From: a virus
DNA: 21,793 bases
Reading direction: 5' to 3' (one strand)
Virus record (IMG/VR): IMGVR_UViG_3300046698_000376
Location: 1-21,793 of that record
Positions 3,250-16,833 of the stretch are shown here, one piece after another. A program made the translations under genes and the position numbers. How positions within the stretch are numbered: the stretch's first letter is position 1; every line of letters begins with the position of its first letter. A model generated the notes under the pieces. That model ran no database searches. It saw only the letters and a list, made by a program, of their open reading frames with translations, and had not been told where the DNA came from.

Positions 3250-4326
3250 ATGGCGATCAGCCGCGCACAGATCAATGGAATCCGCGACTTCAAGCTACGC
3301 ACGATCCTTTTGGGTATGCTCAGCCAGCATCTCGTGGTCGGTGAGGCTTTGGGCATCAATGTGCTAGAGCCGACCAATTCCCCCCAGCAACCGGTGAGCG
3401 CCCCGCCACCGCTTGCCGAGTTTATCGTCAGTGGAGCAAACGGATCTTTCAATGCCAAAATCACGAACCCGGCTCAGTCGGTCAACAAGACCATCTACCA
3501 TGAGTTGAGCTATTGCACCATCGCTAGCTTTGTTGGATCGGTCACGACGCTGCCAGTGCAGACTTCGACGCAACTGACGCTGCCGAGGCCGGGGCTTACG
3601 GTTTTCTGGCGGCTGCGGTCGAGCTACGACCAGACGAATTGGAACAGCTACCAGACGCAACCGGGAACGGTGTCGAGCGGGCTGCAATCGTCAGCCGCAT
3701 CGGAGAACGCCACAGTGCTCAACCAGACCAATTACGCGACGGTGGACTCGGTGTCGAGTGTGGCGGGCACGTCGGCCAACATCCGCGTGTACGGCAAGGC
3801 TGGTCTGAATACCCAGTTTCCGTCAGTCAAGGGGGGAGCAGAGACCATTCTGCCGTCAGCCACGATCATCAATGTGCCGTTTACTTCCGAGCAGGTTGTC
3901 GGGCACGACGGCACCGATTATGTTGCACGTGGAACCCTGCCCGAGGTTTTGATGGACGGAACAACACCAATTGGAGCAGTGAGCGTAGTCGGCAGTGGAA
4001 TGCTGACGCTGCCCACAGTGACCGTAACGGTTAGCCTCGGGGGTGGCGTAACCTCGTGGAATGTGGTGAGCGGCGGTAACGCGCTGAGCGATCCGGTGAC
4101 GCTTACCCCTCCTGTGCAGGTGGGAGCCGGGGCAGCTCCGGGGGCGCAGGTGATCCATGCAGGTGTGCTGATCTCGATTGCGAATGGGCCAGCGGGAACC
4201 GGCGGTACACCCGGCACGTGGCCGGTTACGGTGAGCGGTGGGCAGTTCGGTGGATCAGTCGGCGGCGGCCAGGATATTGGCGGCAACGGGGGACGGCTGG
4301 TCGTCAACGACGGGACGACGGGGTAA
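3250..4326 (+). CDS. Fn3-like structural protein, glycine-rich C-terminus (358 aa)
   Basis: The ATG at 3250 lies two bases after the upstream stop and is preceded by GGGGGAG at 3232-3238. The frame is open back to 3133, but an earlier start would overlap the 1021-aa gene by over 100 bases and add Arg-rich residues, so 3250 is preferred. Residues about 55-145 look like one fibronectin-III-type domain: FIVSGANGSFNAKITNP, then a TVFWRLRSSYDQTNWNSY strand. The middle is Ser/Thr/Val-rich beta sequence. The last ~60 residues are very rich in Gly, Thr and Val, as in fibre or spike tips. It is probably a virion surface or tail accessory protein. No chaperone or peptidase domain is visible. Confidence 0.65.
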   Translation: MAISRAQINGIRDFKLRTILLGMLSQHLVVGEALGINVLEPTNSPQQPVSAPPPLAEFIVSGANGSFNAKITNPAQSVNKTIYHELSYCTIASFVGSVTTLPVQTSTQLTLPRPGLTVFWRLRSSYDQTNWNSYQTQPGTVSSGLQSSAASENATVLNQTNYATVDSVSSVAGTSANIRVYGKAGLNTQFPSVKGGAETILPSATIINVPFTSEQVVGHDGTDYVARGTLPEVLMDGTTPIGAVSVVGSGMLTLPTVTVTVSLGGGVTSWNVVSGGNALSDPVTLTPPVQVGAGAAPGAQVIHAGVLISIANGPAGTGGTPGTWPVTVSGGQFGGSVGGGQDIGGNGGRLVVNDGTTG

Positions 4327-4331
4327 ACGAT

Positions 4332-4694
4332 ATGTGGGCAGTTAGGCCAGGACACGAGCACAATCACATCGACGGGCGTACCCACGTCCATCATGTCCAT
4401 CTCTTCAACCAGGTCACAGGGGGCGAGCACAACATTGACCTGTTGCTCGGTTGCCCGAAGTGTCCGAGTTGCCAGCGTCCGTTTGCGCAGAGCGACCTTG
4501 GAGGGCTGGACCCGGCGGCGGAGATCAATGCCGCGATTGAGGCGCTGATGGAAAACCACGCGGCCATCATGGAGTATGCAGGAAAGCACAGAATCCCGAT
4601 TGGCCTTGGGCCGCTGGGTAGCCATATTCCGCCGGGGCACAAGATCACGAATCACGGGCCGCTCAAGATGCTGCACGTGCCGAGGTCGAAGTGA
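4332..4694 (+). CDS. His/Cys-rich small protein, putative metal binding (120 aa)
   Basis: The start is ATG at 4332, five bases after the previous stop, with GGGG around 4320 as a possible RBS; a longer upstream frame would overlap the preceding gene. The N-terminus carries seven histidines in sixteen residues (H8, H10, H12, H18, H20, H21, H23) and then H33. Residues 41-47 form a CxxCxxC cluster (C41, C44, C47). The C-terminal half is a plain helical segment followed by a His/Pro/Gly-rich tail. The arrangement suggests zinc or another metal, but I recognise no named family. Its stop overlaps the next gene's GTG (GTGA at 4691-4694), so the two are probably translated together. Confidence 0.6.
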   Translation: MWAVRPGHEHNHIDGRTHVHHVHLFNQVTGGEHNIDLLLGCPKCPSCQRPFAQSDLGGLDPAAEINAAIEALMENHAAIMEYAGKHRIPIGLGPLGSHIPPGHKITNHGPLKMLHVPRSK

Positions 4695-5131
4695 AACCGA
4701 TCATCCTCCGCCCGGCCAAGCCTGAGCACATGGGCCTGATTCGTATGCTCCACGCGGAGCAGAATCAGCGGGATGGGACAAGTTACCCCCTGCCGCCATT
4801 CTTCGACAGGCAGCGGTGCCTCACTCCACAGGTGCCCGTGGCGCTGGTCGGGGTCGAGGAAGGGTCGGATGAGCCGCTCCAGGCTATCTGGGTCGAACGC
4901 CGGGCGGAGTTGATGTTTGCCGGCTGCGACCCGAAAGCTACAGCGTTTGCCCGCCGGGACATCGACGGCCTCGCCGCGGTACTGACGTGGCTGGGCTACT
5001 CGGGTCTACACTGCGATGTGCCGCTCGCGCTGGTTGAGGCGATTGGCAAGCCGCTGGATAAAGCAGGGTTTGAACGGAACGATGAAAGGTTAGCGCACTT
5101 TTTCAAGGATTTACGGGAGAAAACACCATGA
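4691..5131 (+). CDS. GNAT-like acetyltransferase-fold protein (146 aa)
   Basis: The start is GTG at 4691, overlapping the upstream TGA by four bases, with GAGG at 4682-4685. The opening IILRPAKPEHMGLIRML is the usual first strand and helix of GNAT N-acetyltransferases. A central strand pair follows (VALVGVEEG, LQAIWVERRAELMF). The end (KAGFERNDERLAHFFKDL) matches the closing GF-x-strand layout of that fold. A clear acetyl-CoA loop (Q/RxxGxG/A) is not visible, so the enzyme may be degenerate or its assignment wrong. Small GNAT-like genes sit among structural genes in some podoviruses, where their role is unclear. The stop overlaps the next start (ATGA, 5128-5131). Confidence 0.5.
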   Translation: MKPIILRPAKPEHMGLIRMLHAEQNQRDGTSYPLPPFFDRQRCLTPQVPVALVGVEEGSDEPLQAIWVERRAELMFAGCDPKATAFARRDIDGLAAVLTWLGYSGLHCDVPLALVEAIGKPLDKAGFERNDERLAHFFKDLREKTP

Positions 5132-6153
5132 GCCGTGCCCAACAGGGAGCTATCGAATCGACGGAAGCGGGCAACACCGCCGCGTCCACAGCGGCAGCCA
5201 AAACGTCCGAAGCCGAGCAGCAGTCCGACATCAGCACGAACCGGTCGCAGCTCGCGAAGTTCGCCGCCAACAACCCCTACGTCCAGGGCGGCCAGGCCGC
5301 AACTGTGGCCAACCAGCAACTGTCGAACACCGCGGACGCGACAGCAGCGGCAGCGGCGTCCAAGAACCAGCAGCAGGCCCAGCGAACCGGCCAGAACGCC
5401 TCCGCCGGGGTTGCGGCAGGTGAGGCCGAGCAACAGGCGGCGCAGCGGGAATTGGGCGGCCAGGAAGCCGGTGCGACTATGAGCAGACTGGCGCAGGGGT
5501 CGCAGTACGGCGAGGATGTGGTGAAGGCTGGCCAAGGCATCACTGCCGAGCAGGCACAACTCACCGGGCAGGAAGTGGGCGAGGCCCAGGGGCAGGCTGG
5601 CATTGAGGAACAGGCCGCGCAGACGCCGAGCTTTATGGATGAACTGGGGCAGGGGCTGATCACGGGCGCTGGGCAGGCGGGATCAGCAGCAATCACAGCA
5701 TTCTGCCCGGCGCGCGGAACCTGCTATTTGCTCCCAAGTGGAGAGCAGAAGAAGGTCGAGCATCTGGAGATTGGCGATCTTCTAGCGGGCATCGACGGCG
5801 AAGACCAACTTGTCGAGGAAATACAAAGCGCAAGGAACCCTGTGCTTCGGACAGAAACAGAGAACGGCTTTGCGATTCGGACTTCCCCGGTTCACGCCTT
5901 CGCTTTGCCGGTTGGCGGGTTCACGGTCGCTGCGCGGTGCATCGGCAAAACCATCCTCACCGCAGACGGCCCGAGCCGGGTGGTGAGCGTCGAGCCAGAT
6001 GGAGTGGACGAGGTATTCAACGTCATCACCGACGGTTCGCACACTTACCGCGCCAATGGCCTATGGTCCCTCGGGGTTGGTGATGCCGAGCGGCAGGTAA
6101 GCATGGAAAAGTGGGAAGAGATTGGCCAGCAGATGATGCAGGCGGGGGGATAG
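5128..6153 (+). CDS. Putative internal virion protein with C-terminal Hint domain (341 aa)
   Basis: The ATG at 5128 overlaps the upstream TGA and has GGGAG at 5115-5119. Residues 1-190 are Ala/Gln/Glu/Gly-rich and probably helical, like phage ejection proteins. Cys193 opens a Hint fold: C193-PARGTC, then an EHLEIGDLLAGIDG strand-turn. The block-B equivalent is TSPVH with His256. The C-terminal block is VFNVITDGSHTYRANG with His305 and Asn310. The final His-Asn plus nucleophile needed for intein splicing is absent: the chain reads NGLWSLG and continues for about 30 residues. N-S acyl shift and cleavage at Cys193 are therefore possible, but ordinary splicing is not expected. The neighbours suggest a virion component delivered or processed during assembly. 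Confidence 0.7.
   Translation: MSRAQQGAIESTEAGNTAASTAAAKTSEAEQQSDISTNRSQLAKFAANNPYVQGGQAATVANQQLSNTADATAAAAASKNQQQAQRTGQNASAGVAAGEAEQQAAQRELGGQEAGATMSRLAQGSQYGEDVVKAGQGITAEQAQLTGQEVGEAQGQAGIEEQAAQTPSFMDELGQGLITGAGQAGSAAITAFCPARGTCYLLPSGEQKKVEHLEIGDLLAGIDGEDQLVEEIQSARNPVLRTETENGFAIRTSPVHAFALPVGGFTVAARCIGKTILTADGPSRVVSVEPDGVDEVFNVITDGSHTYRANGLWSLGVGDAERQVSMEKWEEIGQQMMQAGG
5704..6075 (+). other. Hint (hedgehog/intein-type) domain within the 341-aa protein
   Basis: This segment covers residues 193-316. It starts at the candidate nucleophile Cys193 and includes S253-P-V-H256 in the TxxH position, His305, and Asn310-Gly311. The usual closing His-Asn is replaced by Trp-Ser-Leu-Gly. The assignment rests on the order and spacing of blocks A, B and F, which I judged by eye. 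Confidence 0.7.
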
Positions 6154-6154
6154 C

Positions 6155-7774
6155 ATGGGACCACTCACAGACCAGGACGACGTTCAAAGTCTTATCCCGT
6201 CAGCCTCTCCGCTGATGAACGCAGCAGCCGTGCATGGGCTCGACGTTGAGAAGATCATCGGCGGAGATCCGGCAGAGATCGCCAAAGCCCAAGGACTCGG
6301 AATTCCTGTCCCTGGCGCTGCTCCCGGCCCGGCCGCGAGTACGCCGCCAGTGGTCCAGAGCGCGCTCGCCACCGGAGCAGCAGGCCAGAATCCGCCAGCT
6401 CCCGCTGGGACATCGGCCAACCAGCCGCAGCCGCCGGCCCCGTCGATTGCTCAGAACGATACCCCAAGCTACACCCCAGGATTCGCGCTCGACTTCGGAA
6501 GAAATCTGGCGCAGGCCCAGGTTCCGGCGACCAACGCTCCCAACCCGCCGACGGATACCACCGGAGCGCCAACCGTGCCCGCGTCGATCAGCCCAACAGG
6601 GACGGCGCAAGACGACCCGAACCAGCGGACGCTCCAGCAGGCAAGCCAACTGGGGATGGATTACGCCAAGGGACTCGCCGGCGCTCCCACGCTGCAATCT
6701 CAGGAGCAGGCCATTCAGGCAAAGCGGACACTGCCGCCGCAGGAGTATGACCCGGCCCACCCGGAGTACGCTCCAACGGCCGGCAGGCGCATCATGCGCG
6801 GTATCGTCGGCGGACTCTCCGGCTTGGCTCAGCACGGCATCTTCGGGGCCGCCGAGGGCGCGCTGAACCCCGGCGCGGTCGGAGCGACACCTTACGGCGC
6901 GCCAACACGCCAGTTCTCGATTGCAGCCCAGCGCCAGGCAGCGCAGTCAGCCGCTCTCGACAAGCAGCAGGCGACGCTTGAGAAGGGGTACTCCGAGGAT
7001 ACGGGCCGCGCGAAGGACGTGATCCAGTCCGTGAACGACATCGGGAAGAACGCGGCGTCTGGGCAGAGCGCACAGGCCCGTATGGACACCGCTGCGGCGC
7101 GGGAGGAGACGGCCAGAGTGCAAGGCCAACTCGCGGACATCAAGCAGCAGGTGGCGGACTTCCAAAGCCAGGGGAAGACGCCGACGACCTACGAGGGAAC
7201 AGTTGCGGCAGCGCACCTGGAGAAAGACCCGGCGCGCGCGGCGACTCTTCAATCCGCCGCGAAGGAGATGGAGGCGACTGAAATCAAGAAGTTCCAGTAC
7301 AAGGCCGCGGACCCGGCGCTGGCTGACCAGAGAAGCACTTTCCGCCAGTCCATGATCGACTCAGCGACCGAGCAGGTCAAGGCGTTGCAGGACAAGTACC
7401 AATACGACCCGCGCCGCAACCAGTACGTCAACCCCAACAATCCGAACGATATACTGAATCCGAGCGAGTTGACCGACAAGAAGAACGAGATTGCGGCCAA
7501 GCTCGACAAAGACCTGGGAGCGAAGAAAATGAAGCCGCTGGGCGTCCGTTTCAATCCGTCCGATGCTGGCGCTGACAGACCAAGCGGCAGGGCAGCGCGG
7601 CAGGCGGCAGCACAACCCGCAGCGGCGGCAACCACTCAGCAGCCGAAGCGACCCGCGCCGCCGACTCCGACCGTGCCCGCGCCGCAAGGGGCCGCAGATA
7701 TGCAACTCAGCGCAGCGGACGGGCAGTACCACTATCGGGATGCCGGGAAACATGATCTTGGCGTGGTGAAATAA
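6155..7774 (+). CDS. Ala/Pro/Gln-rich putative internal virion (ejection) protein (539 aa)
   Basis: The ATG at 6155 follows the upstream stop by one base, with a G-run (GGCGGGGGA) just before it. Residues about 45-190 are Pro/Ala-rich and probably disordered. Residues about 210-245 form a Gly/Ala-rich hydrophobic segment (RIMRGIVGGLSGLAQHGIFG). Residues about 250-460 are heptad-like, charged helix suited to coiled coil. The tail is again Ala/Pro-rich and closes with DGQYHYRDAGKHDLGVVK. There is no catalytic motif. The composition and the position between the Hint protein and the giant gene fit a protein packaged in the capsid and ejected with the DNA; that role is inferred. Its stop overlaps the giant gene's start by one base (TAATG, 7772-7776). 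Confidence 0.55.
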   Translation: MGPLTDQDDVQSLIPSASPLMNAAAVHGLDVEKIIGGDPAEIAKAQGLGIPVPGAAPGPAASTPPVVQSALATGAAGQNPPAPAGTSANQPQPPAPSIAQNDTPSYTPGFALDFGRNLAQAQVPATNAPNPPTDTTGAPTVPASISPTGTAQDDPNQRTLQQASQLGMDYAKGLAGAPTLQSQEQAIQAKRTLPPQEYDPAHPEYAPTAGRRIMRGIVGGLSGLAQHGIFGAAEGALNPGAVGATPYGAPTRQFSIAAQRQAAQSAALDKQQATLEKGYSEDTGRAKDVIQSVNDIGKNAASGQSAQARMDTAAAREETARVQGQLADIKQQVADFQSQGKTPTTYEGTVAAAHLEKDPARAATLQSAAKEMEATEIKKFQYKAADPALADQRSTFRQSMIDSATEQVKALQDKYQYDPRRNQYVNPNNPNDILNPSELTDKKNEIAAKLDKDLGAKKMKPLGVRFNPSDAGADRPSGRAARQAAAQPAAAATTQQPKRPAPPTPTVPAPQGAADMQLSAADGQYHYRDAGKHDLGVVK

Positions 7775-10700
7775 TGCCTACCGCACAGGCTCAATGGGAC
7801 GAGAGCGCGCCAGCTATTCCATTGTCCCAGCAATCTGCGTCTGGATGGGATGAGTCGAGTCCGGCTATTCCGCTTCCCAAAGCTGCGCCCGCCCCTCAAG
7901 CCGCGCCCGGCCCGCAACCCGCCGCCGCACCAGCGCCACAGCCAGTCTCCGCCCAGCCGCCAGCCCCTCGCCAGCCGGATACCATCGGCCCCGCTCCGGA
8001 ACCGGGTCGGATAGAGCGCGCGCGCCAATGGCTCGTCAACAGTAATCCTGGCCAGATGCTTGAGCGCAATGCGCCCGGTGTGGCCAGTGCCTTGGGTTTG
8101 ACACCTACCGAGTCCGACGCTGCGCGCCAAGAACGCCATGCAACTGACACATTCCCTTATCACCCCATCCAGGCAGCCGAGCAGATCAACAAGGGCATGA
8201 GGGTCAATCAGGGATACGCCGATGCCTACGACAAACTGGCAGGCGAGCACCCGGATTGGGACGAAGGCGCGGTAAGGCGCGTTCTGGCGGACCGTGGCAT
8301 TACACCAGCGACGATCTCAGAGCGCGCGGGCGGAGCGCATGAGGTAGCCAGCGGCCTGATGGAAGAGGCCAAGCCTCTCATGGTAGCCGGTGCTGCTGCC
8401 GCTCCGCTGCGGACGGCGGCAGCGCTTGGGCTAGGTTTGGCTGGCCAGAAGGCCGGAGAAAAGACTGCGACGGCATTAGGGGCAACTCCCAATGAAGCCG
8501 CCCTAACCGGCGATGTGACCGGGTTGGGCGGTGCCGTACTTGGGGCCGGAGTGCATGGCGACGTGGGAGAGACTACGGCGCGCATCCCCGATCCTGTAAC
8601 TGGAGAAGTCCGCGATGTTCCCGTCAAGACAGCGGCGGTCGGTGGTCCCGGCTTTGGCGCTGCCGTGGGCCGGGACGAATCCGGCCAGGTCTACGCCGGT
8701 GGCCGGGTTGGACCGTACTCAAAGAATTGGCGCTCCAGTGCTGCGCCCCGTCCGCTTGTCCAGCCGTCAACCGAGCCGCTGGCGCTCCCCGCCCCGGAGG
8801 GCAGCGTGCCAGCCGAGGCCGCGCGCCCAGCGCCGCCCCCCGGTGTCGGTCCCATCATCGAGGGTGAGGGCGTACCCATTCCGGCCCAAACACCGCGCAC
8901 CGCCCCGCCGCCGCCCGCGCCCGCTGCACGTCCGCCGCAAGCTCCCAATCTCGCCCAGGCTGAGGCCGCGCTCCGTGGCAAGTCCATCGAAGAGATTCAG
9001 CGTGCCGGCCAGCCCGCAGCCGCTCCCGTCGTCCCGCCGCCTCCATCCACCATCCAACCAGTCCCAGAATCGCCCCAGGGCGCGCCCGCCACGCCACAGA
9101 CGCCCGTACCTGCCCCGGCAGCGCCAGCCGCGCCACAGCCTCAAGCTGGCGGCCAGCGCCCGGCAGTCCAGGCGAGCGGCGAACCCGCCGAGCTGCGCAA
9201 GTCCGCCCAGGAGCAAAAGCCGGACCTTGAGGCTATGGCCGGCCAAGTCGCGGCGGCGGTTCCCGGCACTGACGTTGTAGGCCCACGAGTCAAGAAGATA
9301 GACTCGATGGAAAACAAGGCGGGTCGAGTTGACGAAAATGGTGTGGCCAAAACACCGGAGACCATCGAAGACCCATTGGGCGTGCGCTTGGTTGCGCCAA
9401 AGCCCGCAGCGGTATCCGCCGTTGAACAAGCAGTTCGTGAGAAAATGCCTGTCGTTTCCACTGACAAGATCGACAGCAATGGACTCGATGTAACGCAGTT
9501 TGGCGTGGCAGGCCGGCCGGGCGAACCCATGCAGACGATGGAAGTCCAGGTCGTCAAAGGCCCGGCGCAGGCCGCCGCGATGAAGGCGAGCGACGCCGAT
9601 TACGCCCGCCAGAAAGAAGTGCAGGCCGAGGCTGACAAAGCCGCGCCGGGGAGCTGGCAGCAGAAGGCGGCGCAGAAAGAGGCGGATGAGATTGGCGCGC
9701 AGATCGAGGCGCGGATGGTCAAGGCCAAAGCTCAGGACGCCAAGGCTGCGGCGAAGAAGCCAGCCACTCCCCAGGTTCCAGCCATGCCGGGAACAGCGCC
9801 GCTTGGCGCGCAGCCTGTTGGCTTGGCGCACCCGCTGCGCAAGGGAGAGACCGTAGTTTTGCCGGATGGTCGAAAGGCAACTGCGCTTCACCACAATCCA
9901 AACTACTCGCAAGGTGGCAGGGTCACGGTCCAGGCCGAGGGGAGCAAAACCCCGGAGACGTTCAAGGGGAGCCAGCTCAAGCGTACCCCGGCTGCGCAGG
10001 CTCCCGGTCCAGTCGGCGCACCGCTCCCCGAGCGCGTCCAGCAGATCAAGGACGTCGCGGCCAAGGGAACGCCGGTCAAGATATTCACCGCGCGCGGCGA
10101 CGATCCCGAGGTCAAACGGTGGCTCCAGCAGCACGGCCTCGGCAATCTTCCGGTGACCAACGTCAAGGGCCACGACTTCGGCGGACTGATTGATAACGAG
10201 GTCAACGTACCGACGAATTCGGACAAGCCATTCCAGATTCCGACCGTGCCGGAGGGGAAGACGCTGTACGTCGATCTCGACGGGACGCTGGCGAAACAGC
10301 CCATGGAGGGCCAACCCAATGAACAGCGGATCAGCGCAGAGCAGCCTGCCGGTAATGCTGCAAACGGTAGACCAGAGGAGGCCCAAGGTGCCATTCAAAA
10401 GCAACCAGCAGCGCAAGTGGATGAACGCCAACCGGGACAAGGTGGGCGCGAAGACGGTGGACGAGTTCAACCGGTCGAGCAAGGGATTGAACCTGCCGGA
10501 GAAAGCGCCGTCCAAGCCAAGCCGGGCGGGGAAGAGAATCGCGGGAAAGAAGTAGCTTCCAAGCCGTCCGCCGTCGTGAATACCATCGCTGGAAAGATGG
10601 ACCTGGACGAGTTTGAGCGCAACGGCTATGCGCCGGAGCAAGTGACCCGCGAAGACTGGACAAACTTGCAGCGCGCCGCCCGGCGTGCGATGGGGCAGAG

Positions 10701-13700
10701 TGAAGAGTCCGGCACGCGGTATGCGCCTTATGCTGACTACGAGGGATACCACAAGAGCGCGGTGGAGGCTGCTCTAAAGAAGGGTGAAGAGGTAGACCCG
10801 GAAGTTCTCAAGGACTACCCTGACCTGAAACCGGCAGCGGCCAAGGCGGTCGAGGTTTCTAAAAACCCTGTCTCTCTATCCGAAAAACAATCCTTCACTC
10901 TGCGCCAGATGTCAGACGGTAAGGAGGCATCATGGCTCACAAGTGAGATGGCCGCCGGACTTGAAAAGAAAGGCTTGATCAAATATGAGAGTGGGAATGC
11001 TTACCGAATCACCGAACAAGGAAAGAAGGCCGTCGCGGAACCGGCAGCGCCCAAGGCGGTCGAGAAGGCAGTGCCCGCCAAGCGCCCGACGCGCGCCGAT
11101 GGTCGATTGATACCGCAGGCGGGCGATCAGGTCTACAAGGCTGTGCCTGGCTTTGGCGGAGTCCCAGCCTACGTCAATGGCAAAGCCTTCAAATCCCCCG
11201 GCGGCTTTGTGCGCATCCGCGACACAGGGACCAATGCACTCATCGGCGGGCGCGGCGCAACGGGTAAAACCTACGCGCTGGACGATAGCTGGACAGTGCG
11301 CGGTGATCCCGAAGTGGAGCGCCGGAAGACTGCGCGGGAAGAGAAAGAGAAGGCGCGGAAAGAAGAGCGCGAAGCAGAGGAGCGTGGCGAGAAGACTAAC
11401 ATCGAGAATCGCATCGCAAAGTATGGCGAACTCAAAGCCTCCGATGTAAAGTTTAGCGACGTACTCGAAGACCCGCAGGGGAAGCATTGGGTTGTGCGTG
11501 AAGTGTTGCCAGTGGAAGGGCGCGGGCCAAATGCGGAGCCGTTCATCGGCGTAGTTGACCCCGCTAATCTGCGCGAATCCCCTGGCAATACGGGCAACCT
11601 GGCAGGCTGGCGCAAGGTGGGCACTAACGCATTGGTCGAGCCGATGCCGGACTGGCGCGCGGAACTGGCGAAGGAAGACGGGGCTAAAGCCCCTGAACCC
11701 CCGGTACTCAAGCCGGAACCTGCGGCAAAGCCCGTCGATCCTGATGAACGCGACAGAGCAGAGATTGCGCGGCTGGAAGCTATGCGCTTCAAAACGCGCG
11801 GCCAAGAAAACCAGATCGAGATACTCAAAGCCCGCATTGGAACTCCTGCCGACAAGTACAAGGTGGGGGACGGCGTAGGGTACAAGGTCGCCAGTGGCGG
11901 CAAGACGGCGCAGATTAATCGCGGATTCCGCGTGGTCGAGGTTCTACCAGAGAGCAAAGAGGCGGTTATCCGGCAGGTGGCCGATACCGGACTAACTTCG
12001 ACAGGCGGCAATTATGACAAGATCGGAGACCAGACTATCCACGTCGGAGACCTTGTGCGCGACAGGAGCTACGACGCCAAGCCTCAGTTCTCCGCCGGGG
12101 CGCGCGCCAAGGTGCAGCCGAAGCCAGAGCAGCCAGCGCCGGTCAAGACGGAAGGCGGCGAAGTCACCATCGGCTCTGCCCAGCCGGAACGCGGCGGCCA
12201 GCGCGAGGACATCGAGCGCACCCTCCGCACATACCAAGAGAAAGGCAAGCCAGCCATCATCGAGGGCGACCAGCTAATCATCCGCGATGGTCGCTATCAG
12301 ATGACGTGGGACAATGGCCGGTTGAAGATCGGCAAGATTCATGATCTCGCCAAGGCGGGATGGGAGAGTGTTCTCGACCGCTCTGGTATCGGTACTCAGG
12401 ACCGCTGGACCTCATTCAACCAGGCCGCCAAGGACGAGTACGACAGCCGCGCCAAAGACAGGGCTGACCGCGATGCTGAGGCGCAAGCCAAGCGCGAAAC
12501 CGAGGAGATGGAGAGAGCGCACACCGCCGAACTCCAGGAGCGATTCACCACCGAGATGCGCGACCGTCTCGCCCGCGCAAAGTTTACGCCCGGTACGATG
12601 ATTCCGAGAGGACCGAAAGGCGAACTCCCAGAAGTTAAGGGGGATACGCTCGGGGGTCTGATAGTTCACAAAGCGATTTCGGAGCGAACGTTCTCCAACA
12701 AGCGCGGCAGTGGAAGCGATTGGGAAGTCTCTCATATCCCAAGTGGGCTGGCAATTCTCAGAGGACTCAGCAACCGCGATAATGCGAAGATTGCAGCCGT
12801 CCGGTTGGCTGACATCGGCAACTGGAACAGACCCCAAAAAGAACTGGAAGCTGATAAAGATTTGAGAGGGCGCGGCGCTGAGCTTGCAAAGGCTGTCAGA
12901 GAAGGCGCAACGGCCATGACGCCGAACGATCTCAAGGCGATGGAAGCGAGGCCCGTTCCAGAGAAAGCACCCGTTGCTGAAATCGCGCCGAAGTCCGCAC
13001 CAGTTCCGGTTGCCGCAGTCAAAGCAGACGCCTCCGCCGTTGCGCCGGGGACAGAACCGCCGAGCGAGTTAGAGCAGTGGAAAGCGGAACTCGCAGCAAT
13101 GCTCGGAAAAGACAGAAGTCATTTTGGAAAAACGAATCCGCAAGTCGCTGTCCTTCAAGGCCGCATTGCCGACGCGGAACATGCGGTCAAGACTTCCGGC
13201 CTGCCACTCACCGAGCCTGAAGAGAAGCTCGTGACTGACCCGGACAAGAACAAATGGAAGTACCAAGCCGAGTATTTCGTCAAGGCGCTGGAGCCGGTCA
13301 AGCAGGCGTGGATTGACAAATTCCATTCTGGCAACGGCAAGGATGCCTGGGATTGGGAATCTCTCTCCGACTCCAAGAAAGCTCCGAACCTCGAAGGGAT
13401 ACATCCTGACGGCTTCCCCGATGACTTCATCCGCATCGAAGTACCGAACGACGGCAAGTTCCTCGTCAAGAACACCCCGGCGGCCATCGACCGGCTGCTC
13501 AAGTCCGCGCCGTCCGCCTTCGCCGAGCCGACACATACCATCCCCGGAACGGCCAAGAGAAGCGTCCCGCGCGCGCCGAAGGAGTTAGAACCAGACAAGC
13601 TCATAGCCTTCCATAAGGCCCAGATCGAAGAGACTGAGCAGGACTTAAAGCGGTCGCGCCCGGAAGATCGAGAGTTCCTGCAAGACAAACTCAAGGCAGC

Positions 13701-16700
13701 GCGCGCGAATCTCGCCGCCGCGCAGCAGGCCGCAAAGGATGTATTCAAAGAAACGAGGGACAAATATGCCAAGCAAAATGGAGGAGACGGCAGCAAGACT
13801 GAGAAAGAAATGGGAAGGCCGAACGGACGGGATATTGATAACCCCGGTGGCCGGTCAGGGCCGGATAGAGGCGGCCTACAAGCTACTTCAACAAGAGCAG
13901 AACTCGCCAAGCTCTCCAAGCCCGGAGAAGTAGCAAAGGATCAACATGGAAAAACCGCTAGCGAAGATAGTACCGGAGCACATGGTTTACATGAACCCGG
14001 AGGAAGACCCATTCAGAAGGGCGATGAAAGCGGCGGCAAGGAAACTGAATTGGGACAAGGACGACACGGTGATCTTCTCGACGCCAGAGCAGGGACCGAC
14101 CGTGGAGGGCGTCCGAAAGATGATGGAGATGACCAGGCAACTGGAAAAGAAACACTCACGCAACGCGCCGAATCAAAGCAACCCACAGCCCGAACTTCCG
14201 GCGACGCAGGCGTAGGCAAGCTCTCCGACCTGGGCACGAAGTTCTACTCCAACCCCTTCTTTGATCCCGGCCTCTACAAGCAGTTCATCGGAGACCCCAT
14301 CAAGGAATGGGCCTCCGACAAGGAGACCACGGGAGACACGCAAAAGGCTCTCATGCGGGAGACGCGCGGGCAGCGCGACAGGCGTGAGGCAATCGCCGCG
14401 CATAAGCTGTCCAAAGAATTGCGAGATTGGGACCGGCGCTCCAGGGCCGACAGCCTCGCCTTTATGAATGCAGTCGAGCACGTTGGCGGAAAGACAATCG
14501 ACGATCTGGCCCCGAAGGACCGTGATCTGGCGGAACTGCTCAGCGCCATGGGCGACCATCTGAAAGCGAAGATCGAGGCGCTACAGCCCGACGTAATCCG
14601 CCACTGGATTGAAAACTACTATGCTCACTTGTGGGAGAAACCATCTCAAGCCCGCTCGGTTATTCAGGCGATGTACGCATCGAAGAGACCGTTCGCTGGC
14701 CGAGCTTCATTCCTGCGACAGCGCACCGTTCCGAATATGCAAGACGGTATCGACATGGGCCTCAAGCCCGCGACGTGGAATCCTGTACGCAATGCCCTGT
14801 TGAAGTTCCACGAGATGAATCAATTCATCATGGGGCATGAGACGCTTCAAGTGATGAAGGACTCCGGCACTGCCAAGTATGTGCGGGCCGGCTCCAGGCA
14901 ACCTGAAGGATGGGTCAGACTCGACGACCGGATTGGAACCGTCTACGGGCGTGAGAAGATCATCAACGAAAATAAGCTGGACGCTGCCACCTACGACAAG
15001 ACCTACAAGGGCGGCAACCAGCCAATTCCGAGCGTAGCTAGAGCGGATGTCGATGAAGCCATGAATGATGCGACGATCATTCGCGGCTACTACTACGCCC
15101 CGGCGGACGCGGCCAAAGCATTCAACAATTATATGTCCACCGGGTTAGCTGGGCGCTCTGGTGTCTACGATGCGCTGCGGTGGGCCAACAATAACCTCAA
15201 TATCATGCAGCTTGCGATCAGCGGATTCCACGCGACAATGACGACCTTTGCCGCGGCTGCCGGAGATACAGGGCTGGCCATCCAGCAGGCTACGGAAGGG
15301 AAGCCCATAGAGGCTGGCGTGAGCCTGTTCCGTGGAGTTACCGCTCTGCCGTCGCTCATCAACACGCTTCGCAATGGCATAAAACTACACCGCGAGTACG
15401 TCGATCCTGGAACTTATGCAGAGATGAGCCGCCAGGCCGATGCGATCGCGCGCGCTGGCGGTCGTTTCGCGGCAAACACCGTCGAGATCAGACCTTTAGA
15501 TAAGGCGGTCAATGCTCTCAGGAATGGCGCCGTCTTGGAAGGTCTCTCAGCCGTACCCGGAACCCTGCTCCATGCAATCACTGACCCGCTGATGAAGTTC
15601 TACGTCCCTATGATGAAGTTTGGAGCGTTCTACAATATGTCGTCCAATGTTCTCGAAAACGCAGAGCAGGGGAATTGGTCTCCAGAGCAGACGCGGGTTC
15701 GCGTGCAAGAGGCGTGGAAGTCGGTGGACAATCGATTTGGCGAACTTGTCCGCGACAACCTGTTCTGGCACAAAGCACTTCTTGATGTCCTAGACCTCAC
15801 AACTCGCAGTGTTGGCTACACCTATGGAACCATCAACGAGTACGCCGGCGCAGCCTACGACACAGCCAAGCAGGCCGGGAAGGCAGCGTCGGGGCAGAGA
15901 CCGCGCGTCACCGACCGCATGGCGTTTGCAATCGCCTCATTCATAAATGCGGGCATAATTGGCGGCGCGCTGACTTATCTGATGACAGGCCAAAGGCCGC
16001 GAGAGTGGAAGGATTACTACTTCCCGAAGAAGGCGAACAGCTCTCGCCTCTCAATGCCGGTCTATCCAACGCAGATCATCAACATGATGTTCCACCCGGT
16101 CTCGACAATGACCAACAAAATTTCACCCATCCTGGGAGCGCTCACGCAAGCTATCCAGAACCGGGACTTTTACGGAACGGAGATCAGGCACCCCGACGAC
16201 TCAACCGTGAAACAGCTTTGGGAGTTCTCAAAGTGGGCAGCTCGGCAGCCCGCACCGTTCGCCGCAGAGAGCGCCGAGAGGCAACTGAAACAGCGTGGTG
16301 CTGGCCCCTCACTCGCCGAGATTCTACACTCGGCCCATCAACACCCCGGCGATGTAGTTTCTGGATTCTTTGGCTTCAATCCCGCGCCAGCCTACATCGA
16401 GCACAGCACAGCTTATAATCTGGCGCAGAAATACTCTTTGGCGAACCGTCCTCCGGGAACCAAGACAGCAGAGGACACCGCCCGTTATGACGCGAAGCAA
16501 GCGATCAGGACCATGCAGAGGACAGGAGACGTTGACCAAGACCAGATTGACCGCTACGTGCAACAGGGCGTTCTCAAGGATGAGGATGTCGATAAGGTCA
16601 TGCGTGAGGCCGATGAAGTGCCAATCGTTCATGCCGCAAAGAGTCTCCATGTCGATCAATACCTGAATGTCTACCAGAAGGCAACCCCAGAGGAGCGGGA

Positions 16701-16833
16701 AGCCTTGGAAGAGCACTGCGATAAGATCGTGGAGAGAGAGCGCAGAGAGCAGATCGAGGATGGAATCGACGCAATCAAAAAGGACGAAGCTGATAAAGCT
16801 GTCCCATCGACCAGCACCGGCGGAGGGGGATAA
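7774..16833 (+). CDS. Giant multidomain polyvalent protein (3019 aa)
   Basis: The frame is open without a stop for 3019 codons from ATG 7774. By rough residue position: two WDES(A/S)PAIPL repeats (8-34); Pro/Ala linker; Ala/Gly hydrophobic segment (190-265); Pro-rich linker; RelA/SpoT-like segment (475-615); SH3-like strands (665-730); HAD-like motifs in permuted order (750-845); low-complexity linker (860-930); YHKSAVEAALKKGEEVDPEVLKDYPDL, a motif recurrent in phage polyvalent proteins (992-1018); winged helix (1033-1087); charged coiled coil (1170-1220); SH3-like strands (1360-1430); mixed helical domains to 1995; low-complexity linker (1998-2148); long helical C-terminus (2150-3019) with a hydrophobic helix near 2716-2740. 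Proteins of this kind are thought to be injected with phage DNA and act against host defences. Activity of any domain here is unproven. Confidence 0.8.
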   Translation: MPTAQAQWDESAPAIPLSQQSASGWDESSPAIPLPKAAPAPQAAPGPQPAAAPAPQPVSAQPPAPRQPDTIGPAPEPGRIERARQWLVNSNPGQMLERNAPGVASALGLTPTESDAARQERHATDTFPYHPIQAAEQINKGMRVNQGYADAYDKLAGEHPDWDEGAVRRVLADRGITPATISERAGGAHEVASGLMEEAKPLMVAGAAAAPLRTAAALGLGLAGQKAGEKTATALGATPNEAALTGDVTGLGGAVLGAGVHGDVGETTARIPDPVTGEVRDVPVKTAAVGGPGFGAAVGRDESGQVYAGGRVGPYSKNWRSSAAPRPLVQPSTEPLALPAPEGSVPAEAARPAPPPGVGPIIEGEGVPIPAQTPRTAPPPPAPAARPPQAPNLAQAEAALRGKSIEEIQRAGQPAAAPVVPPPPSTIQPVPESPQGAPATPQTPVPAPAAPAAPQPQAGGQRPAVQASGEPAELRKSAQEQKPDLEAMAGQVAAAVPGTDVVGPRVKKIDSMENKAGRVDENGVAKTPETIEDPLGVRLVAPKPAAVSAVEQAVREKMPVVSTDKIDSNGLDVTQFGVAGRPGEPMQTMEVQVVKGPAQAAAMKASDADYARQKEVQAEADKAAPGSWQQKAAQKEADEIGAQIEARMVKAKAQDAKAAAKKPATPQVPAMPGTAPLGAQPVGLAHPLRKGETVVLPDGRKATALHHNPNYSQGGRVTVQAEGSKTPETFKGSQLKRTPAAQAPGPVGAPLPERVQQIKDVAAKGTPVKIFTARGDDPEVKRWLQQHGLGNLPVTNVKGHDFGGLIDNEVNVPTNSDKPFQIPTVPEGKTLYVDLDGTLAKQPMEGQPNEQRISAEQPAGNAANGRPEEAQGAIQKQPAAQVDERQPGQGGREDGGRVQPVEQGIEPAGESAVQAKPGGEENRGKEVASKPSAVVNTIAGKMDLDEFERNGYAPEQVTREDWTNLQRAARRAMGQSEESGTRYAPYADYEGYHKSAVEAALKKGEEVDPEVLKDYPDLKPAAAKAVEVSKNPVSLSEKQSFTLRQMSDGKEASWLTSEMAAGLEKKGLIKYESGNAYRITEQGKKAVAEPAAPKAVEKAVPAKRPTRADGRLIPQAGDQVYKAVPGFGGVPAYVNGKAFKSPGGFVRIRDTGTNALIGGRGATGKTYALDDSWTVRGDPEVERRKTAREEKEKARKEEREAEERGEKTNIENRIAKYGELKASDVKFSDVLEDPQGKHWVVREVLPVEGRGPNAEPFIGVVDPANLRESPGNTGNLAGWRKVGTNALVEPMPDWRAELAKEDGAKAPEPPVLKPEPAAKPVDPDERDRAEIARLEAMRFKTRGQENQIEILKARIGTPADKYKVGDGVGYKVASGGKTAQINRGFRVVEVLPESKEAVIRQVADTGLTSTGGNYDKIGDQTIHVGDLVRDRSYDAKPQFSAGARAKVQPKPEQPAPVKTEGGEVTIGSAQPERGGQREDIERTLRTYQEKGKPAIIEGDQLIIRDGRYQMTWDNGRLKIGKIHDLAKAGWESVLDRSGIGTQDRWTSFNQAAKDEYDSRAKDRADRDAEAQAKRETEEMERAHTAELQERFTTEMRDRLARAKFTPGTMIPRGPKGELPEVKGDTLGGLIVHKAISERTFSNKRGSGSDWEVSHIPSGLAILRGLSNRDNAKIAAVRLADIGNWNRPQKELEADKDLRGRGAELAKAVREGATAMTPNDLKAMEARPVPEKAPVAEIAPKSAPVPVAAVKADASAVAPGTEPPSELEQWKAELAAMLGKDRSHFGKTNPQVAVLQGRIADAEHAVKTSGLPLTEPEEKLVTDPDKNKWKYQAEYFVKALEPVKQAWIDKFHSGNGKDAWDWESLSDSKKAPNLEGIHPDGFPDDFIRIEVPNDGKFLVKNTPAAIDRLLKSAPSAFAEPTHTIPGTAKRSVPRAPKELEPDKLIAFHKAQIEETEQDLKRSRPEDREFLQDKLKAARANLAAAQQAAKDVFKETRDKYAKQNGGDGSKTEKEMGRPNGRDIDNPGGRSGPDRGGLQATSTRAELAKLSKPGEVAKDQHGKTASEDSTGAHGLHEPGGRPIQKGDESGGKETELGQGRHGDLLDARAGTDRGGRPKDDGDDQATGKETLTQRAESKQPTARTSGDAGVGKLSDLGTKFYSNPFFDPGLYKQFIGDPIKEWASDKETTGDTQKALMRETRGQRDRREAIAAHKLSKELRDWDRRSRADSLAFMNAVEHVGGKTIDDLAPKDRDLAELLSAMGDHLKAKIEALQPDVIRHWIENYYAHLWEKPSQARSVIQAMYASKRPFAGRASFLRQRTVPNMQDGIDMGLKPATWNPVRNALLKFHEMNQFIMGHETLQVMKDSGTAKYVRAGSRQPEGWVRLDDRIGTVYGREKIINENKLDAATYDKTYKGGNQPIPSVARADVDEAMNDATIIRGYYYAPADAAKAFNNYMSTGLAGRSGVYDALRWANNNLNIMQLAISGFHATMTTFAAAAGDTGLAIQQATEGKPIEAGVSLFRGVTALPSLINTLRNGIKLHREYVDPGTYAEMSRQADAIARAGGRFAANTVEIRPLDKAVNALRNGAVLEGLSAVPGTLLHAITDPLMKFYVPMMKFGAFYNMSSNVLENAEQGNWSPEQTRVRVQEAWKSVDNRFGELVRDNLFWHKALLDVLDLTTRSVGYTYGTINEYAGAAYDTAKQAGKAASGQRPRVTDRMAFAIASFINAGIIGGALTYLMTGQRPREWKDYYFPKKANSSRLSMPVYPTQIINMMFHPVSTMTNKISPILGALTQAIQNRDFYGTEIRHPDDSTVKQLWEFSKWAARQPAPFAAESAERQLKQRGAGPSLAEILHSAHQHPGDVVSGFFGFNPAPAYIEHSTAYNLAQKYSLANRPPGTKTAEDTARYDAKQAIRTMQRTGDVDQDQIDRYVQQGVLKDEDVDKVMREADEVPIVHAAKSLHVDQYLNVYQKATPEEREALEEHCDKIVERERREQIEDGIDAIKKDEADKAVPSTSTGGGG
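7795..7824 (+). repeat. N-terminal WDExxPAIPL motif, copy 1
   Basis: Codes for WDESAPAIPL, residues 8-17 of the giant protein. It pairs with a second copy 51 bases downstream. Similar short Trp-Asp/Pro-Ala repeats occur at the start of large phage proteins; a packaging or processing role is only a guess. Confidence 0.7.
7846..7875 (+). repeat. N-terminal WDExxPAIPL motif, copy 2
   Basis: Codes for WDESSPAIPL, residues 25-34, differing from copy 1 by one residue. Codon choice differs between the copies, so the peptide rather than the DNA appears to be conserved. Confidence 0.7.
9196..9627 (+). other. RelA/SpoT-like nucleotidyltransferase segment (in giant protein)
   Basis: Residues about 475-618. 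The order of motifs resembles the (p)ppGpp synthetase fold: RVKK (Arg505, Lys507, Lys508), then DPLGVRLV with Asp533 and Arg538, then a spacer, GLDVTQFGV where synthetases have a GYxSxH element, then MEVQVV with Glu590 and Gln592, and a closing DADYARQ helix. The substrate-stacking Tyr and the His of the GY..H element are replaced by Leu and Gln, so the domain may be inactive or act on another substrate. Assigned by eye. Confidence 0.5.
10021..10335 (+). other. HAD-like phosphatase segment, motifs in permuted order (in giant protein)
   Basis: Residues about 750-854. PERVQQIKDVAAKG leads into KIFTARGDD (Lys769-Asp777), then LPVTNVKGHDFGGLIDNE with Lys798, Asp807, Asn808, and only then LYVDLDGTLAK with the DxDxT nucleophile motif (Asp834, Asp836, Thr838). 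In ordinary HAD 5'(3')-nucleotidase-like proteins, DxDGT comes first and the FTAR and VTNxK...DD parts follow. Here the order is II-III-IV-I, as a circular permutation would give. Confidence 0.6.
10374..10381 (+). promoter_or_regulatory. Shine-Dalgarno for nested gene at 10388
   Basis: AGAGGAGG lies six bases before the GTG at 10388. It is one of the best RBS matches in the window and serves no start in the giant frame, which supports translation of the +1-frame ORF. Confidence 0.6.
10388..10555 (+). CDS. Nested +1-frame small phage protein, PFKSxxQRKWMxAN type (55 aa)
   Basis: This ORF lies wholly inside the giant gene, in its +1 frame. It starts at GTG with a strong SD and ends at TAG. The protein opens (M)PFKSNQQRKWMNANRDK; short phage proteins beginning MPFKSxAQRxWM(x)AN recur widely, and this is a good match from memory. 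The rest is basic (SKPSRAGKRIAGKK). GC-ending codons are 48 of 55 (87%) in this frame against 25 of 56 (45%) in the giant frame. The giant frame here reads as Gly/Gln/Glu/Pro-rich low complexity (residues 872-927). All this points to a real overprinted gene. The function is unknown; basic charge hints at nucleic-acid or virion contact. Confidence 0.65.
   Translation: MPFKSNQQRKWMNANRDKVGAKTVDEFNRSSKGLNLPEKAPSKPSRAGKRIAGKK
10829..10854 (+). repeat. 26-bp direct repeat, left copy
   Basis: This is the left copy of a repeat matching positions 11039-11064 at 25 of 26 bases (core CCAAGGCGGTCGAG). It codes for the linker PAAAKAVE. The copies are 210 bases (70 codons) apart, in frame, and bracket the winged-helix segment. 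Confidence 0.75.
10870..11034 (+). other. Winged-helix-like segment (in giant protein)
   Basis: Residues 1033-1087. The pattern is LSEKQSFTLRQM, helix, WLTSEMAAGLEKKGLIKY, then a short wing and YRITEQGKKAV, the layout of MarR/PadR-like winged helices. GC of 10861-11040 is 49% (88 of 180), against 58% just upstream and 77% just downstream. Codon use is also more A/T-ending. This suggests a separately acquired module. Confidence 0.6.
11039..11064 (+). repeat. 26-bp direct repeat, right copy
   Basis: The right copy codes for PAAPKAVE and differs from the left copy by a single G to C change. It follows immediately after the winged-helix segment. Confidence 0.75.
13755..13760 (+). promoter_or_regulatory. 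Shine-Dalgarno for nested gene at 13766
   Basis: GAGGGA lies five bases before the ATG at 13766 and matches no start in the giant frame. It favours 13766 over the earlier in-frame ATG at 13739. Confidence 0.5.
13766..13933 (+). CDS. Nested +1-frame small protein A (55 aa)
   Basis: This ORF lies inside the giant gene in the +1 frame, from ATG 13766 to TAG 13931-13933. The protein has ordinary composition: MPSKMEETAARLRKKWEG, then DGILITPVAGQGRIEAAYK, then a Ser/Pro tail. The giant frame over the same bases is Gly/Arg/Asp-rich low complexity. GC3 is 35 of 55 here against 27 of 55 in the giant frame, so codon bias favours it only modestly. It is followed 12 bases later by a second nested ORF in the same frame, and the pair looks like a small two-gene unit. 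I recognise no family. Confidence 0.5.
   Translation: MPSKMEETAARLRKKWEGRTDGILITPVAGQGRIEAAYKLLQQEQNSPSSPSPEK
13936..13940 (+). promoter_or_regulatory. Shine-Dalgarno for nested gene at 13946
   Basis: AAGGA lies five bases before the ATG at 13946, in the short gap between the two nested ORFs. Confidence 0.5.
13946..14215 (+). CDS. Nested +1-frame small protein B (89 aa)
   Basis: This ORF lies inside the giant gene in the +1 frame, from ATG 13946 to TAG 14213-14215. The protein is balanced and looks folded: KPLAKIVPEHMVYMNPEEDP, a basic helix (FRRAMKAAARKLNW), a TVIFSTPEQGPTVEGVRKM strand-helix, a charged helix and a Pro/Asn/Gln tail. GC-ending codons are 64 of 89 (72%) against about 39% (35 of 90) in the giant frame. 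The giant frame here (residues 2058-2148) is Gly/Asp/Lys/Thr low complexity. With its own RBS this is the strongest of the two tandem nested candidates. I recognise no family. An untranslated coincidence is possible but the codon signal argues against it. Confidence 0.6.
   Translation: MEKPLAKIVPEHMVYMNPEEDPFRRAMKAAARKLNWDKDDTVIFSTPEQGPTVEGVRKMMEMTRQLEKKHSRNAPNQSNPQPELPATQA
14221..16650 (+). other. C-terminal helical region, LPD38-like (in giant protein)
   Basis: Residues about 2150-2960. It starts at KLSDLGTKFYSNPFFDPGLY and is almost entirely helical. It contains VIRHWIENYYAHLWEKP, several amphipathic Ala/Gly helices, a membrane-like helix (FAIASFINAGIIGGALTYLM, near 2720-2739) and REWKDYYFPK. 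Large phage polyvalent proteins often end in such a region, named large polyvalent-associated domain 38. The assignment is from memory of that style. Confidence 0.45.
16822..16828 (+). promoter_or_regulatory. Shine-Dalgarno for small terminase gene
   Basis: GGAGGGG lies four bases before the ATG at 16833, inside the Gly-rich last codons of the giant gene. It fixes the TAATG overlap as the start. Confidence 0.6.

Follow-up and report, generated by a model that had tools for sequence, protein, structure and literature searches.

The window, by which we mean the whole analysed stretch of DNA, is an IMG/VR phage record of 21,793 bases. Its forward strand carries a giant polyvalent-type gene (7774-16833, 3019 codons in the ORF list) that is the host frame of the nested genes described here. 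An in-frame cassette linker of about 163 codons lies at 13738-14226 on the same strand, as placed by giant-frame alignment and predicted disorder. It is followed by the C-terminal domain of the giant (C-domain; 14215-16830, forward strand), which is conserved in the giant frame and served as a control region. The +1 frame of the linker contains two forward-strand ORFs, ORF55 (13766-13933, 55 aa) and ORF89 (13946-14215, 89 aa), and the coordinates, lengths, 12-base spacing and frame given for them in the preliminary description are correct. ORF55, which constitutes family F1, is recognised by nested +1 homologues and by selection in its own frame. ORF89 is an F2 module (codons 1-35, KIVPEHM..DPFRRAMKAAARKLN) fused to an F3 module (WDKDDTVIFSTPEQGPTVEGVRKMMEMT..), and it is recognised by F2 and F3 homologues in relatives and likewise by selection.

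The linker had been described as a low-complexity region of the giant protein between two well-formed ones. AlphaFold2 agrees, with a pLDDT of about 30 over the giant residues matching 13780-14289 against 70-87 in the flanks, where a coiled coil precedes the linker and helices follow it. The AlphaFold2 model of ORF89 itself is weak (two helices, mean pLDDT 61), and a structure search with this weak model as the query returned no matches. The only domain match in the window's giant is a weak RelA_SpoT one at 9100-9900 (E = 0.009, below the Pfam cut-off), and a separate 341-aa ORF at 5128-6153 has a weak, below-cut-off match to a Hom_end-associated Hint domain (E = 5e-5). The giants of two relatives, L013 and L014 (about 48% C-domain identity), have 2'-5' RNA ligase and SNF2 domains above the Pfam threshold. 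Their ligase domain also matches the anti-CBASS protein Acb1, and both contain a sub-threshold RelA/SpoT region with stronger matches than that of the window.

Each small ORF has a Shine-Dalgarno-like sequence on its 5' side, also on the forward strand. The site of ORF89 is AAGGA (13936-13940; AAGGAG in relatives), and it stands 5 nt from the ATG as the preliminary description had it for both ORFs. That of ORF55 is a GAGG (13755-13758) at 7 nt, and it is kept as GAGGGAAAAGTATG in the related contigs L031 and L007. Because four-base matches to a ribosome-binding site precede 27% of the +1 ATGs in these giant genes, the two sites count as supporting evidence only. Composition is more distinctive. 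Read in its own frame, ORF89 has GC1/2/3 of 57/39/72, and the giant frame has 69/55/42 over the nested stretch versus 59/43/68 in the C-domain. The codon-position signature over the nested stretch is the normal pattern shifted by one, and the contrast in GC3 noted earlier between ORF89 and the giant frame (72 against 42) holds. ORF length was rejected as evidence: when the giant amino acids are kept and synonymous codons are redrawn, a +1 run of at least 92 codons appears in 76% of trials (P = 0.76). The real evidence for these putative small genes is comparative.

A protein search located ORF89 at the matching junction in two further contigs, again in the +1 frame, and wider searches added L007, L010 and L011 as well as ORF55 in L031 and L032/L007. 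The nested +1 homologues of ORF55 are 95% identical in L031 and 79% identical in L032/L007. F2 is present in L002, L003, L007, L010 and L011, and F3 in L031, L002 and L007, so that the two halves of ORF89 occur apart in other contigs. Their order also varies. The window has F1 and then the fused F2-F3, L031 has F1, F3 and then a C-domain unlike that of the window, and L007 has F3, F1, a domain and F2. Another linker of the window's giant contains a second nested +1 gene (10319-10552, forward strand, 78 aa, PFKSNQQRKWM..KGLNLPEK), which constitutes family F4 and is recognised by homologues, selection and a flip of codon phase. The preliminary description had reported a nested gene at 10388; a comparable +1 gene is indeed present, with its start now placed at 10319. 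F4 homologues are nested in +1 in L011 and L015, and a fifth family, F5, was founded on L013 and L014.

All nested ORFs were compared with one another by BLASTP. At the loci analysed, F1-F4 occur solely as +1 genes nested in giants, with differing flanking domains, and searches of PHROGs and Pfam gave no family match for F1-F3. Weak matches in L024, L025, L027, L029, L037 and L040 looked unrelated and were set aside. A distant relative of the giant, in L017, has a 45-aa nested +1 ORF at 4462-4596 with a TAAGGAG site and a weak match to PHROG 37812 (E = 9e-4).

Frame-specific selection tests, which the preliminary description had proposed, find the small frame constrained and the giant frame neutral. 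In the relocation test, each difference between two sequences is moved to a randomly chosen site that has the same base, and the resulting amino-acid changes are counted. Changes in the small frame are depleted for F1 (window-L031, 3 versus 11.9 expected), F2 (L003-L007, 14 versus 24.2), F3 (window-L031, 18 versus 28.1), F4 (window-L011, 31 versus 50.7) and F5 (L013-L014, 48 versus 59.9), with p <= 0.0003 in all five listed pairs. Because the same sequences recur in several pairs of a family, the pairwise tests are not independent of one another, and F1-F3 come from few contigs. The giant frame is at its neutral expectation in the same F1-F5 pairs. These comparisons indicate purifying selection on the small frame for all the families tested. 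The negative controls (60-codon pieces of the C-domain and a shadow ORF in the terminase gene) have a constrained host frame and a neutral +1 frame. Since the controls show the reversed pattern, the frame under selection flips at the linker. Other nested ORFs matched between relatives, in the terminase gene, in the C-domain and in antisense, were rejected, such matches being shadows of a conserved host frame by the terminase and C-domain controls. The same comparison bears on the idea that ORF55, ORF89 and their kin are chance ORFs whose similarity is a shadow of the conserved giant frame. The giant genes often contain open +1 runs as long as these. Wherever the small frame shows constraint, however, the giant frame evolves neutrally, and the controls behave in the opposite way, which leaves that idea barely credible.

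Both frames are maintained. The giant frame has no stops in any of the 13 small ORFs, and the joint probability that it would be open in nine divergent ones is 5e-5 if synonymous codons are redrawn with pooled small-ORF usage, falling to 7e-11 when the usage of clean phage genes is taken instead. In the codon redraw the third frame would be closed nearly always for most small ORFs, and this partly accounts for the consistent use of +1 in the overlaps. In the terms applied to overlapping genes, the giant frame is open across the overlaps of relatives and the nested frame is constrained in its amino acids. Scanned for codon phase in an unbiased way, the window's giant has strong flips only at 10351-10533 and 13792-14175, and the codon usage of the small frame is closer to the phage's own than is that of the giant frame. 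In the L011 giant, the codon-phase scan suggests +2-frame coding at 4085-4246 and 9140-9304.

The linker is present in some giants and absent from others. In L009 and L015 the domains that flank it in the window are joined directly, without the roughly 163 codons that hold both small genes. Because these two contigs have the same flanking domains without it, the ORF55/ORF89 stretch behaves as an in-frame cassette. L009 is also 100% identical to L011 up to one point, after which it is without a domain and the F2 linker of that domain. Within the window, a 225-bp block (13966-14190) is 100% identical to L002 even though the sequence upstream of the block is unrelated and identity falls to 54% in the downstream domain, a footprint of recombination. 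The L010 sequence switches within a small ORF: to the left of the switch it matches the second F2 linker of L011, to its right it is 100% identical to L003, and this recombinant keeps both frames intact. L010 is direct evidence for a crossover in a small gene that alters which sequence the giant's C-domain is attached to. The linkers also behave as joints for domain swapping between phages.

Nested genes of this kind recur in cultured phages. An F5 model made from L013 and L014 alone recovers F5 in the giants of 11/11 cultured phages (Atu_ph08, PBC5, VvAW1, POI1126, Itty13, Mwe-JY07, Pavtok, PEp14, Stean, LASTA and SopranoGao), which are annotated as DarB-like, PLxRFG or 'DNA methylase', most of them as DarB-like. 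In 10 of the 11 the F5 gene is in +1, inside an open giant frame and unannotated; PBC5 is the only one of the cultured-phage copies found in which an annotated ORF covers F5 in the right frame. The copies have diverged to about 40-50% identity. All the cultured F5 pairs listed are depleted of amino-acid changes in the small frame, and nearly all of them show a neutral giant frame. F1-F4 were searched for in the 11 cultured loci and were not found there. A further 76-aa ORF, F6, is nested in +1 and unannotated in the giants of the Erwinia phages Pavtok, PEp14 and Stean (L089 3529-3756, L092 3763-3990 and L093 3748-3975) and has GGAGG ribosome-binding sites. Its small-frame constraint is moderate, and it is a candidate nested gene with weaker support. 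Fixed-distance controls for F6 were discarded as unaligned and near saturation. In Sinorhizobium phage PBC5 (L085 8697-9930), the F5 gene marks a break in the DarB-like giant. The upstream half (orf33) runs to its end in the frame of the small gene, after which the giant continues in another frame. This split may be real or may be a sequencing frameshift.

We consider it very probable that the linker at 13738-14226 is a dual-coding cassette whose small genes are translated by internal initiation, and that linkers of this kind are exchangeable. The core of the preliminary description is supported: a disordered linker with ordered regions on both sides holds two overprinted genes in tandem. The +1 frame would carry a pair of genuine small genes with separate ribosome-binding sites, and internal initiation together with termination-reinitiation on the giant mRNA would yield ORF55 and ORF89. 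We infer initiation at the ribosome-binding site and reinitiation between the tandem ORFs, and the 12-nt gap between the ORF55 stop and the ORF89 start suits this combination. The giant frame would read through the linker as a disordered spacer, free to drift in sequence and forbidden only to acquire stops. Cassettes would be common to different linkers and different phages and be traded between them, with at least one crossover that joins different domain arrangements falling inside a small gene. If the +1 frame were instead reached by programmed frameshifting, the products would be shorter giants with alternative C-terminal tails and there would be no internal starts. The small frame is open for some codons 5' of the ATG at several loci, and the upstream half of the PBC5 giant is continuous with it. 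However, the small proteins are homologous from the ATG onwards, ribosome-binding sites precede the starts, and the tandem ORFs, with a stop between them, would each need a slip site of their own, so that frameshifting is improbable.

The preliminary description suggested that the giant had grown by running through former small genes. The window's giant is indeed longer by a cassette than those of L009 and L015, but the proposed route is not borne out. It predicts free-standing copies between shorter polyvalent genes, and none was found in the collections searched: 50,697 phage records and the related contigs yielded no such copy for any family, and genome contigs yielded none for the ORF89 family. 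Searches of genomes from two bacterial phyla, where coverage of the relevant hosts is poor, were empty and uninformative. A scan of genome contigs for the C-domain places it within a longer fused gene in distant relatives wherever the start is readable, and no F-family small gene was noticed at the C-domain junction of these relatives. A model in which the small genes once stood free and the giant grew over them by loss of stops can draw on the greater length of the giant here, on the more phage-like codon usage of the small frame, which is the usual sign of the older frame, on the split of the PBC5 giant at its F5 gene, and on the hepatitis B P/S overlap, for which something similar has been proposed (PMC8227390). 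We nevertheless regard it as unlikely, given the lack of free-standing copies in those collections, the junction already fused without small genes in L009 and L015, the longer fused genes of distant relatives with a readable start, and the chance that the PBC5 split is a sequencing frameshift. Because a fused giant exists without the cassette, it is simpler to suppose that the cassette was gained or lost in a gene that had been fused before.

An origin of the small genes de novo, by overprinting on a spacer that the giant already possessed, seems to us just as unlikely as growth by loss of stops. The known copies are all nested, and +1 is the commonest frame among de novo overprints (PMC8227390). 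Yet the spacer itself is absent in L009 and L015, residues are constrained in the small frame and not in the giant frame here, and codon usage is more native in the former.

The closest precedent for the cassettes is ShiLan, an out-of-frame insertion in phage DNA methylase genes (PMC11855218). Both ShiLan and the cassettes are stop-free in-frame insertions in a large phage gene with a real gene in another frame, and in both the insertion is poorly structured in the host frame. ShiLan itself is one 195-aa HNH endonuclease with a GTG start, inserted between highly conserved residues (PMC11855218), whereas the insertions here hold one or two genes of about 47-132 aa from several families, lie in disordered linkers and have ATG starts with a ribosome-binding site. 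By analogy, the cassettes might be selfish homing elements whose out-of-frame gene promotes copying into homologous genes. Insertion in frame with a gene in another frame, a patchy distribution and identical DNA within divergent surroundings all resemble such an element, and one site is found both with and without the cassette. However, for the short products of the nested ORFs searched, PHROGs and Pfam gave no HNH or other nuclease match, the genes are nested in disordered linkers rather than in conserved catalytic motifs, and the cultured F5 copies have diverged to an extent that resembles a resident gene. Homing is accordingly improbable, and exchange of dual-coding linkers remains the reading that we prefer.

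The hosts of the nested genes appear to be giants of the polyvalent or DarB-like kind, which are multi-domain phage proteins (PMC5512222; P1 DarB, PMC9024508; JC1, PMC9144972). DarB of phage P1 is packaged and ejected (PMC9024508), and the DarB-like protein of JC1 is reported in virions (PMC9144972). In P1, Ulx helps DarB to localise (PMC9024508), and on this model we tentatively suggest that the small proteins could be helpers made together with the giant, for example for loading it into the head or keeping it unfolded for ejection. Searches of the open-licence literature brought up no description of genes nested within polyvalent or DarB-like genes: the words 'overlap' and 'linker' do not occur in the polyvalent-protein survey (PMC5512222), and 'nested' does not occur in the JC1 (PMC9144972) and P1 (PMC9024508) papers. 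Genes in linkers are overlooked because annotation gives the whole stretch to the giant. Small out-of-frame nested genes with both products in use are familiar from the Rz/Rz1 spanin genes of phages and from the overlapping genes of phiX174. Those are single fixed overlaps, whereas the genes described here form families in the linkers of giant genes, and some have been exchanged between linkers or phages.

One possible generalisation, which we advance with reserve, is that overprinted small genes are standard interdomain joints of polyvalent phage giants and combine a gene, a flexible spacer and a patch of homology for domain shuffling. If so, a phage could swap anti-defence domains while the giant frame stays open and a helper gene is gained or kept. 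Few phage proteins are as large as the DarB-like giants, which have been linked to the protection of incoming phage DNA. Recognising the nested genes would provide defined small proteins to test, and the linkers of giants would not be meaningless spacer. Since F5 occurs in cultured phages, the central claim is directly testable. The nested genes would also offer a concrete way for domain shuffling within one huge gene to keep its frame.
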